Positions 36,195 to 42,112 of a stretch of DNA of 49,678 nt are shown here, piece after piece. Below the pieces are notes generated by a model. The model did not search any database and had not been told where the DNA came from. It worked only from the letters and a program-made list of their open reading frames with translations. A program made the position numbers and the translations under genes. Position 1 is the first letter of the stretch, and every line of letters begins with the position of its first letter. The DNA lies in assembly GCA_022750375.1 (NCBI GenBank), contig JAKIVU010000003.1, positions 1-49,678 of the forward strand. The letters run 5' to 3'. The DNA comes from Thermoplasmata archaeon. Its GTDB lineage: Archaea; Thermoplasmatota; Thermoplasmata; Lutacidiplasmatales; UBA184.

Positions 36195-36659
36195 GTGCCG
36201 GTGCCCGACGAAGAGCTTGACCCGATCCTGATCCAGGTGACGGTCCCGTTGCCCATCCCCATGATCTATGCGGCGTTCCTGGACCCCGCCCAGATGAAGG
36301 GCTGGCTCTGCGACTCCGCCTCGGTCGATGCGAAGGTCGGAGGGGAGTATGTCGTGGGCTGGTCGGAGCCGACTGCGTTCGAGAGCCACGGCACGATCCT
36401 CGCGATGCACGCCGACCTCGACATCGACTTCAGCTGGCGGGCGCCCCCGCCGTTCGCGACCCTGCTGAACGAGCCGGAACCGAAGACCCATGTCTACGTC
36501 CGGTTGACCGAATCACCCGAGGGGATCGATGTGACGCTCGAGCATTCCGGCTGGGGCTCCGGCGAAGCCTGGGAAGATGCGCGGTCGTGGCATTTCCACT
36601 TGTGGGACGACCGGCTGCACCGTCTCAAGGACTACATGATCAAGGCCGCGTACGGCTGA
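36195..36659 (+). CDS. SRPBCC/AHSA1-type protein
   Basis: This 154-residue protein has a START-like helix-grip fold of the AHSA1 group. PLPIPMIYAAFLDPAQMKGWL and the segment KVGGEYVVGW are typical, followed by a conserved beta-rich region and a long C-terminal helix (WHFHLWDDRLHRLKDYM). These proteins bind hydrophobic ligands or client proteins; no ligand can be assigned. GTG 36195 and GTG 36201 are both possible; the TATA-like ACTCTTTAGG near 36168-36177 favours 36201 slightly. It is not clearly linked to its neighbours. Confidence 0.8.
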   Translation: MPVPDEELDPILIQVTVPLPIPMIYAAFLDPAQMKGWLCDSASVDAKVGGEYVVGWSEPTAFESHGTILAMHADLDIDFSWRAPPPFATLLNEPEPKTHVYVRLTESPEGIDVTLEHSGWGSGEAWEDARSWHFHLWDDRLHRLKDYMIKAAYG

Positions 36660-36930: not shown

Positions 36931-37623
36931 GTGGAGATCGGTGGCTGCCCGGTCCCAGAGGATCGGCTCTACGACCTCGAGAACGACGTCTGGTATCTGC
37001 CCGAAGCCAACGGGGGGCTCGCCCGCGTCGGCCTGATTGGGCCCCTCGTCTGGTTCGCCGGCCTGTTCCGGACGATCTCGTTCCGGCCGGTGACGGGGAC
37101 GATCGGACGGGGTCGAAGCGTGGCGACCGTAGAGAGCACTCGTTACACCGGTGCCGTGCGTCTTCCCCTCGACGCGACGGTCGTCGACCGGAACCTCGCC
37201 CTGGTCGTGCGACCCCGACTCCTGAACGATGCGCCGTACGACGACGGATGGGTGGTGCGGATTCGTGCGGAGGAAGGGGTGCGGGCGGGGCTCGAGACCG
37301 CGGAGGCGATCGCCGAGCGGTTGGCGGAGCGGATCCGGACCCAGCGGATCCGATGCTGGCCGCAAACCCCGGACCTCGAACTCTACGAGATCGGGGTCGA
37401 ATGCTCGGCGGTGCTGACGATGCTCAACGAGGAATTGCGGGGACGTCCGGCGGGGGAGGCGCTGCTCCTCGTGACGGACGACCCGACGAGCCCGATCGAG
37501 ATGGAACGGTGGTCCGATCAGACCGGCCATAAACTCCTGGCACACCGGAAGGAGGGCGACCTCCACCAGTTCCTGGTACGGAAGGAGGCGCATCCGGTGC
37601 CGCGCCGGCGGCCGGGAAGCTGA
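36931..37623 (+). CDS. GcvH-like domain fused to TusA-like domain, lipoyl lysine missing
   Basis: This is a 230-residue protein. Residues 10-112 follow glycine-cleavage H protein (YLPEANGGLARVGLIG, then VESTRYTGAVRLPL, then NDAPYDDGWVVRI), but the lipoylated Lys is Arg71. Residues 120-225 follow TusA (YEIGVECSAVLTMLNEELR, LLLVTDDPTSPIEMERW, TGHKLL); Cys158 sits at the first position of the TusA Cys-Pro-x-Pro motif, but both prolines are lost. TusA relays persulfide sulfur and GcvH-like LbpA carries lipoate in sulfur oxidation. A sulfur-transfer scaffold is therefore likely, but lipoate carriage is not. GTG 36931 is about 28 nt after a TATA-like box; the open frame upstream is antisense to the zinc protein gene. 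A rhodanese gene converges from downstream. Confidence 0.75.
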   Translation: MEIGGCPVPEDRLYDLENDVWYLPEANGGLARVGLIGPLVWFAGLFRTISFRPVTGTIGRGRSVATVESTRYTGAVRLPLDATVVDRNLALVVRPRLLNDAPYDDGWVVRIRAEEGVRAGLETAEAIAERLAERIRTQRIRCWPQTPDLELYEIGVECSAVLTMLNEELRGRPAGEALLLVTDDPTSPIEMERWSDQTGHKLLAHRKEGDLHQFLVRKEAHPVPRRRPGS

Positions 37624-37647
37624 CGCCCTACCGCGGGGCGGGACCGA

Positions 37648-38505
37648 TTACGGTTTCTCGATCGGCGTCCGAATTAGATTTCCCCATTCGGTCCAGGAGC
37701 CGTCGTAGTTCCGCACGTCCGGGTATCCGAGGAGATACTTCAACACGAACCAGGTGTGGCTCGACCGCTCCCCGATACGGCAGTAGGTGATCACGGGATG
37801 GGCCGGCCCGACGCCTTTCGACCGGTAGAGCTCCTCGAGTTCCTCCCGCGACTTGAACGTCCCGTCGTCCTTGACGGCCTGCGCCCAGGGGATGTTCTTC
37901 GCGCCGGGAATGTGACCGCCGCGTTGCGCGTGTTCCGTCGGATACTCGGGGGGCGCGGTGATCTCTCCCGAGAATTCCTTCGGACCGCGGACGTCCACGA
38001 GGCCGAACTTCCCGGCCTGGACCTCGGGCAGCGCCTTCCGAACGTCGTCGAGGTAGGCGCGCAGCTTCGCATCGGGCGCTCCCGCGGTGAACTTCCCTGC
38101 CGAGTGCTTCGGGGCCTCCTTCGTGAGCGGCCGGTCCTCGGCGATCCACTTTTTTCGGCCCCCGTTCAGGAGCTTCAGGTTCTTCGCGCCGTAGTACGAG
38201 AACACCCAGTAGGCAAAGGCGGCGAACCAGTTGTTGAAATCCCCGTAGAGCACCACCGTCGTGTCGGGGTCGATCCCGGCGCGGGCGAACAACGCCGCGA
38301 ACGCGTCGGGGGAGAGGATATCGCGCCGGACCGGGTCGTTGATGTCCTTTCGCCAGTCGAACAGCACCGAGCCGGGGACGTGACCCAGCTCATAGTTCGC
38401 GGCGGGGTCGTAGTCGACCTCCGCGATGCGGACCTTCGGGTCGTTCAGGTGCTCGGCGAGCCACTCGTTCTCCACGAGCACTTCGGGGTGTGCGTACGCC
38501 GCCAT
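37648..38505 (-). CDS. Tandem-rhodanese sulfurtransferase
   Basis: This 285-residue protein has two rhodanese domains. The first (about residues 8-130) has [19 protein letters not shown] and [14 protein letters not shown] and lacks an active Cys. The second has [13 protein letters not shown] and the active-site loop [14 protein letters not shown], where the Cys carries persulfide. This is the layout of thiosulfate or 3-mercaptopyruvate sulfurtransferases; the loop CRIGERS is the usual thiosulfate type. I chose ATG 38505, with the TATA box GGGTATATCC 30 nt upstream. The stop lies 24 nt from the stop of the GcvH/TusA-like gene. Confidence 0.92.
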
Positions 38506-41716: not shown

Positions 41717-42112
41717 CTAGTGGCTACCGCAGCCGCAACCGCCGCCGTTCTCTGAGTTGCTGCCGCACGAGGTGCATCCGCCGGCCATGCCCGCCGCGTC
41801 GGGTTCGGGCAGGGTGGGATTGGTGATCTTGAAGCCGGACTGGCTCAGGTCTTCCACGTAGTCGATGACCGCGCCGTCGACGAACTTCGTGCTCGTCGGG
41901 TCGATGAGGAGGGCAACGCCGTCCACGCGCAGCACCTCGTCGTCGGACCTCGGCTTCGCGAACGCGAGCCCGAACTGGACCGCGCTCCCGCCTCCGCAGC
42001 AGCCTCCGCCGCCGGGTTGCGCGTAGACACGAACTCCGATCTCCGGCTTCTGACCCCGAATGAGCGTCTTCACCTGCTCGACGGCCGCTGGGCGAATCTC
42101 GACGTGAATCAT
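41717..42112 (-). CDS. A-type iron-sulfur carrier (IscA/HesB family) with extra cysteine insert
   Basis: This 131-residue protein carries or inserts Fe-S clusters. The family Cys lies at Cys38/Cys39 in GGGGCCGGGSAVQFG, LLIDPTSTKFVDGAVIDY is the conserved centre, and the terminal GCGCGSH supplies Cys126 and Cys128. Between FKITNPT and that end is an insert with a second pair, CTSC (Cys113, Cys116), so the tail has four cysteines where the family usually has two. The insert could bind another metal. The promoter is probably near GCTTAACTGC, about 40 nt upstream. Confidence 0.88.
   Translation of the reverse strand: MIHVEIRPAAVEQVKTLIRGQKPEIGVRVYAQPGGGGCCGGGSAVQFGLAFAKPRSDDEVLRVDGVALLIDPTSTKFVDGAVIDYVEDLSQSGFKITNPTLPEPDAAGMAGGCTSCGSNSENGGGCGCGSH

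Follow-up and report, generated by a model that had tools for sequence, protein, structure and literature searches.

The gene at 36931-37623 (+ strand) of the window, by which we mean the whole 49,678-nucleotide stretch of DNA that was analysed, encodes a protein in which an H-fold domain of the LbpA type is joined to a TusA domain. Our main reading, to which we assign a probability of roughly 60%, is that this protein is a lipoate-independent LbpA-TusA sulfur carrier, supplied by a rhodanese to which it is genetically linked.

Sequence and predicted structure of the fusion

The open reading frame begins with GTG and codes for 230 amino acids, a start that is backed by the homologues, all of which begin at the same place. 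In many of them (inspected by eye upstream of 36931 of the window and in loci L002-L030) an A/T-rich box (CTAATG, CTAAAG or similar) precedes the start codon by about 25-30 bp, which is consistent with a leaderless archaeal transcript. Searches of the full protein against Pfam returned GCV_H over residues 14-131 (E=2.5e-15) and TusA over residues 155-218 (E=6.7e-9), both over the curated cut-offs; when the two halves were searched apart, the E-values were 3.4e-15 and 1.7e-9, respectively. An AlphaFold2 model, for which an alignment of 43 homologues was used as input, had a mean pLDDT of 93.3 and a pTM of 0.85, and Foldseek matched it to H-proteins (TMt of about 0.9) and to E. coli TusA (3lvj, TMt 0.88); in the model, both folds are predicted with high confidence. 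The proposal of the initial annotation that two carrier folds are joined in one protein was borne out by the searches of the separate halves, by the predicted structure and by the conservation of the fusion as a unit.

The H half (approximately residues 1-141; 36931..37353, +) contains no lysine and ends in a helix at residues 124-137, and the TusA-fold half (approximately residues 149-230; 37375..37620, +) lies beyond an interdomain linker. The only cysteines of the protein are Cys6 near its N-terminus (codon 36946..36948), Cys142 in the linker (37354..37356) and Cys158 in the TusA half (37402..37404). Arg71 (37141..37143) aligns with the lipoyl lysine of solved H-proteins (VES-T-R as compared to VES-V-K of 1onl), so that the VES core is kept and the lysine lost, as had been claimed from the sequence of this copy. 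There is not a single lysine in residues 1-200, and the H half therefore cannot be lipoylated. Cys158 aligns with the carrier cysteine of E. coli TusA, and is set in ECSAV instead of a CPxP motif (CSAV as compared to CPEP in E. coli).

Distribution and conservation

A total of 144 non-identical full-length fusions were gathered, their hosts being Thermoplasmata, Nitrososphaeria and further Thermoproteota. Within the window's order, 80 of 106 genomes have a full-length or nearly full-length fusion (a hand count from the search table), and it also occurs in two further Thermoplasmata families. A scan of named genomes turned it up in Candidatus Lutacidiplasma silvani, Nitrososphaera sp. AFS, a Nitrososphaeraceae MAG and several MAGs with the label Bathyarchaeota. 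In the class to which Nitrososphaera sp. AFS belongs, about 40 out of 250 genomes carry the fusion, and so do additional divergent Thermoproteota. Soil Thermoplasmata MAGs close to Lutacidiplasmatales are the group in which the window itself falls. Nitrososphaeria examples include full-length fusions on contigs of 1.6-3.4 Mb. Such very long contigs, together with the homologues across the order, indicate that the fusion is a product of neither chance nor misassembly. It is usually present in a single copy per host. Genome G257 holds a second one (L169:468-1127, - strand), a long-branch paralogue beside the normal copy (L154), with Thr71 and with the family's only proline after the TusA cysteine (ECPETL).

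Two of the three cysteines, Cys142 and Cys158, are present in all 144 fusions, and Cys6 in 140, the starts of the remaining four being unreadable. Residue 71 behaves differently: it is Arg in 107 members, Lys in 22, Thr in six, Ser in four, Val in two, Asn in two and Ile in one. In a tree built with the column of residue 71 masked, at least 13 changes between Lys and non-Lys were counted, of which at least 10 are forced by well-supported branches. The variability of this site and the invariance of Cys6, Cys142 and Cys158 show that the lipoyl lysine is dispensable and the cysteines are not. Arg71 was also considered as a key catalytic residue, and this was ruled out family-wide, as other members have K, T, S, V, N or I at the site. 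In the TusA half, CPxP is replaced throughout the family by C-[SA]-A-[VTI], with a proline at +1 from Cys158 in only one of the 144 sequences and at +3 in none; the earlier observation that the TusA cysteine survives without its prolines thus extends to the whole family. Of the two residues whose conservation the initial annotation proposed to check, the cysteine is conserved throughout, and the arginine is fixed within the window's own family (76 of 76 non-identical homologues) but not beyond that family.

The ratio dN/dS was roughly 0.1-0.3 in both halves, as estimated for nearest pairs by simple Nei-Gojobori counts in which synonymous sites are partly saturated, and these values point to purifying selection on the H half and the TusA half alike. 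Viewed in isolation, the window protein could be taken for a decayed copy of GcvH and TusA, or for the result of misassembly, since it has lost both the lipoyl lysine and CPxP. Against the number of full-length homologues, the low dN/dS, the invariant cysteines and the independent assemblies, some with very long contigs, this reading is scarcely conceivable, and a pseudogene is ruled out by the conservation, by dN/dS and by the number of independent genomes. Nor do the homologues share a lysine at position 71 that this copy alone has lost, for the window's family has arginine throughout and the site varies outside it. The initial suggestion of a carrier that is repurposed rather than degraded is upheld by the conservation of the fusion as a unit, the invariant TusA cysteine and the loss of the CPxP prolines across the family.

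Ancestry of the H half

The lipoate-binding proteins of sHdr systems differ from GcvH by two extra conserved cysteines, one near each terminus, and strictly retain the lipoyl lysine (Cao et al. 2018, PMC6067878). Cys6 and Cys142 of the fusion correspond to these two cysteine positions. The free LbpA of relatives have the same N-terminal cysteine, and their chains stop just after the counterpart of Cys142, which means that TusA was joined to the C-terminal cysteine tail of an LbpA, a tail which now serves as the linker. In a tree of H domains the fusions formed one group (94/96) adjoining free Nitrososphaerial LbpA (92/91), the supports of 92-94 falling just under the tool's starred threshold, while GcvH was set apart from the fusions (100/99). 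Together, the two marker cysteines and the grouping with free archaeal LbpA show, at the level of sequence, that the H half is of LbpA ancestry. Its description as GcvH-like therefore holds for the fold but not for the descent.

By the same tests the fusion is not a GcvH: it lacks the lysine, scores 39.8 bits with the GcvH equivalog TIGR00527 (cut-off 115.85) and lies outside the GcvH clade. Nor does it qualify as a genuine LbpA, for it has the ancestry and cysteines of one but neither the lysine nor hdr-like neighbours. Neither in the window nor in the loci used for comparison were hdr-like genes found beside the fusion, and no free LbpA was seen in most of the relatives that carry the fusion; membership in an sHdr operon was thus ruled out. 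A role in glycine cleavage was not supported, as the canonical GcvH is another protein in another clade, and several hosts possess neither another GCV_H protein nor a detectable lipoate ligase.

Loci of the hdr-like type with free LbpA do occur in relatives of the window genome (L051-L060; e.g. L058:8560-9006 and L058:11613-12002). The free LbpA in these loci keep the lysine (ESGKWAGPV) and have a C-terminal CxxC, and lipoate ligases, free TusA and DsrE-like genes are found there as well. The same loci contain a second, very divergent H-like protein (ESEKW/ESDKW) with its own long branch in the tree, which may be a distinct lipoyl carrier.

Linkage to a rhodanese gene

The proposed partner of the fusion is a two-domain rhodanese of the thiosulfate-sulfurtransferase type (37648..38505, - strand), with two stretches matching Pfam Rhodanese and the loop CRIGERSS. 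This neighbour is the strongest hint at function, and the initial annotation does not mention it. The two genes are convergent, and a gap of 24 bp (37624..37647) separates their stop codons. Among proteins of known structure, the closest match to the rhodanese was Thermus 1uar (E=7e-113), followed by mycobacterial thiosulfate sulfurtransferases (3aax, E=1e-90), and thiosulfate is a candidate for its in-cell donor.

In the first 21 loci compared, the rhodanese adjoins the fusion in all, including four in which the order of other genes has changed. Among 132 non-identical fusions, 107 have a tail-to-tail rhodanese no more than 250 bp away (median gap 14 bp) and a further nine have a convergent one within 10 kb; in 11 it was absent from the sampled flank, and in five there was no room to tell. 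Some of the fusions with no rhodanese in the sampled flank have one elsewhere in the genome. In four related Nitrososphaeria loci (L213, L214, L215 and L219) the two genes are about 4.3 kb apart and still convergent. The arrangement is another one in 12 divergent Thermoproteota loci, where the rhodanese is co-directional and directly upstream in seven, convergent in one and not seen nearby in four. Genetic linkage between fusion and rhodanese is therefore found in two gene arrangements, and this argues for a functional link between them rather than for one inherited layout. In itself, a pair of conserved convergent neighbours is weaker evidence than an operon.

Co-occurrence was also counted across genomes. 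Of the 106 genomes of the order, 78 have both genes, two the fusion only, five the rhodanese only and 21 neither (Fisher p=1.9e-15, a value that ignores phylogeny and the assembly gaps that remove both neighbours). Outside the order, the rhodanese was present in 15 of 15 re-checked genomes with the fusion and in 10 of 34 without it, and in the non-Lutacidiplasmatales loci no other gene is as constant beside the fusion.

Two other genes of the neighbourhood recur. An AHSA1/START-type protein is encoded directly upstream of the fusion (36195-36659, +) and is kept in 16 of the 21 loci of the window's order; it is absent where synteny breaks, and thus probably belongs to the neighbourhood only. 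A few genes past the rhodanese, an Fe-S biosynthesis protein of the HesB/IscA type (41717-42112, -) with a Cys/Gly-rich C-terminal tail (GGCTSCGS...GGGCGCGSH) is conserved in 12 of the fusion loci that were compared.

Lutacidiplasmatales have been predicted to use thiosulfate by means of a thiosulfate sulfurtransferase and sulfite oxidase (Sheridan et al. 2022, PMC9287336). The molybdenum oxidoreductase domain PF00174 was found in 25 of 40 genomes with the fusion as compared to 13 of 40 without it (p=0.013, uncorrected), and in three of 12 genomes of the window's family. Obligate coupling of the fusion to sulfite oxidase was rejected, as this association is weak.

Lipoate independence and alternative roles

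The lipoate ligase/octanoyltransferase domain PF21948 was not found in 14 Nitrososphaeria genomes (G505, G482, G512, G539, G595, G526, G653, G489, G492, G479, G511, G409, G410 and G494), a search which an unrelated ligase could escape and in genomes for which completeness is not stated. These 14 genomes have no GCV_H protein other than the fusion, which can thus work without lipoate. The Thermoplasmata hosts do possess lipoate ligases, and wherever a ligase exists those of the 22 members with Lys71 could be lipoylated. One might then suppose that the family is a true lipoyl carrier, the members with lysine being lipoylated and those with arginine acting as decoys or regulatory subunits. We regard this as very improbable, because the lysine was gained or lost so many times, because three hosts of Lys71 members (G489, G492 and G539) are among those with no detected ligase, and because members with Arg, Val, Ile, Ser, Thr or Asn hold all three cysteines and usually the rhodanese too. 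Moreover, with mostly one copy of the fusion per host, there is no lipoylated twin for which it could be a decoy.

The main rival to the sulfur carrier supplied by the rhodanese is a biosynthetic one, in which the TusA half would relay persulfide to enzymes of tRNA thiolation, molybdopterin or Fe-S synthesis, the rhodanese would be the source of the sulfur, and the H half would serve in docking or assembly only, with no chemistry of its own. E. coli TusA fills such biosynthetic roles, and the Foldseek match 3lvj is itself an IscS-TusA complex. The fusion also occurs in genomes with no free LbpA, and in Nitrososphaeria with ammonia-oxidiser-like genomes, in which energy-yielding sulfur oxidation is not expected. 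A free TusA, however, accompanies the fusion in the majority of 27 hosts, so that a dedicated biosynthetic TusA is already at hand there; the exceptions are the window's own genome and a few more, where the fusion is the sole TusA match. The loss of CPxP likewise speaks against this role, as do the two invariant cysteines of the H half, which argue for thiol chemistry in that half. For this reason the role of a docking module, which the initial annotation gave to the H half, is probably too narrow for it, and overall we consider the purely biosynthetic donor unlikely, if well worth keeping in mind.

Less probable again is that the protein is a redox or persulfide buffer or sensor, its cysteines forming disulfides or persulfides that protect from reactive sulfur or report it, while the rhodanese detoxifies sulfide or cyanide. 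Three invariant cysteines and a rhodanese partner would suit such a function, and the hosts are aerobic soil archaea (PMC9287336). Yet the protein has no DNA-binding or catalytic domain, and a TusA half joined to a half of LbpA ancestry is better suited to transfer than to sensing.

Proposed mechanism and significance

The division of labour proposed for sHdr organisms is that TusA delivers the sulfur and LbpA presents it to the enzyme (PMC6067878), and the fusion would thus unite two players of one pathway. We propose that an archaeal LbpA was joined at its C-terminal cysteine tail to a TusA domain, upon which the lipoyl arm turned dispensable. The rhodanese would draw sulfane sulfur from a donor, thiosulfate or some other compound, and pass it to the fusion; both the contact between the two proteins and this direction of flow are what we infer from the data above. 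The TusA half presumably takes and gives persulfide in the manner of a sulfur carrier, with Cys158 as the most likely first acceptor, whereas Cys142, 16 residues before it in the linker, and the N-terminal Cys6 are probably relay or resolving thiols. The H fold would then present the loaded carrier to an acceptor, the end use being either the utilisation of thiosulfate or the provision of sulfur for biosynthesis. In the former case, the fusion could be the missing sulfane-sulfur acceptor in the thiosulfate model of PMC9287336.

A broader claim, in which we place about as much belief as doubt, is that these proteins form an undescribed, lipoate-free branch of LbpA, in which the fused TusA functionally replaces the lipoyl swinging arm and which, with the linked rhodanese, constitutes a two-protein cytoplasmic module that processes sulfane sulfur (thiosulfate) in Nitrososphaeria, Lutacidiplasmatales and further archaea, some of them from lineages in which no lipoate ligase was detected. 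No description of an LbpA-TusA fusion was found in the literature searched, which is not proof that there is none. The fusion family shows an H-protein scaffold that is conserved in a sulfur context without lipoate. It thereby opens two questions to experiment: for what reason LbpA depends on lipoate in sulfur oxidation, and whether the core mechanism includes thiol chemistry at the two LbpA cysteines. It also puts forward a specific protein pair for the handling of sulfane sulfur in abundant soil archaea, Nitrososphaera and its relatives among them.

Comparison with known systems

With GcvH the fusion shares the H fold, the VES core and the N..P.L.N..PY..GW region; it differs in having no lipoyl lysine, in its two extra conserved cysteines, in its separate branch and in its occurrence in organisms where no lipoate ligase could be detected. 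The likeness to the LbpA of sHdr (Cao et al. 2018, PMC6067878) goes further, as it includes the H fold, the conserved N- and C-terminal cysteines and the fact that the nearest relative of the H domain is a free archaeal LbpA. In contrast to those proteins, the fusion has no conserved lipoyl lysine, is joined to TusA and has a rhodanese as its neighbour instead of hdr-like genes. The rhodanese matches the two-domain thiosulfate sulfurtransferases (Thermus 1uar, mycobacterial 3aax/3hzu) over its full length, with CRIGERSS for the CRIAERSS of 1uar, and is set apart from them by its genetic tie to the LbpA-TusA fusion. E. coli TusA (1dcj/3lvj) has the same fold and the same position of the carrier cysteine as the TusA half; in the fusion, CPxP is missing and the TusA part is joined to an LbpA domain rather than free. 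An archaeal parallel is thiosulfate transfer by DsrE3A/TusA of Metallosphaera cuprina, where, as outlined in Liu et al. 2014 (PMC4175335), a TusA protein likewise receives a sulfur group by cysteine-based transfer. There, according to the same outline, the proteins are separate, belong to an hdr-like cluster and have a DsrE donor, whereas the linked donor candidate of the fusion is a rhodanese and the carrier is joined to an LbpA domain.
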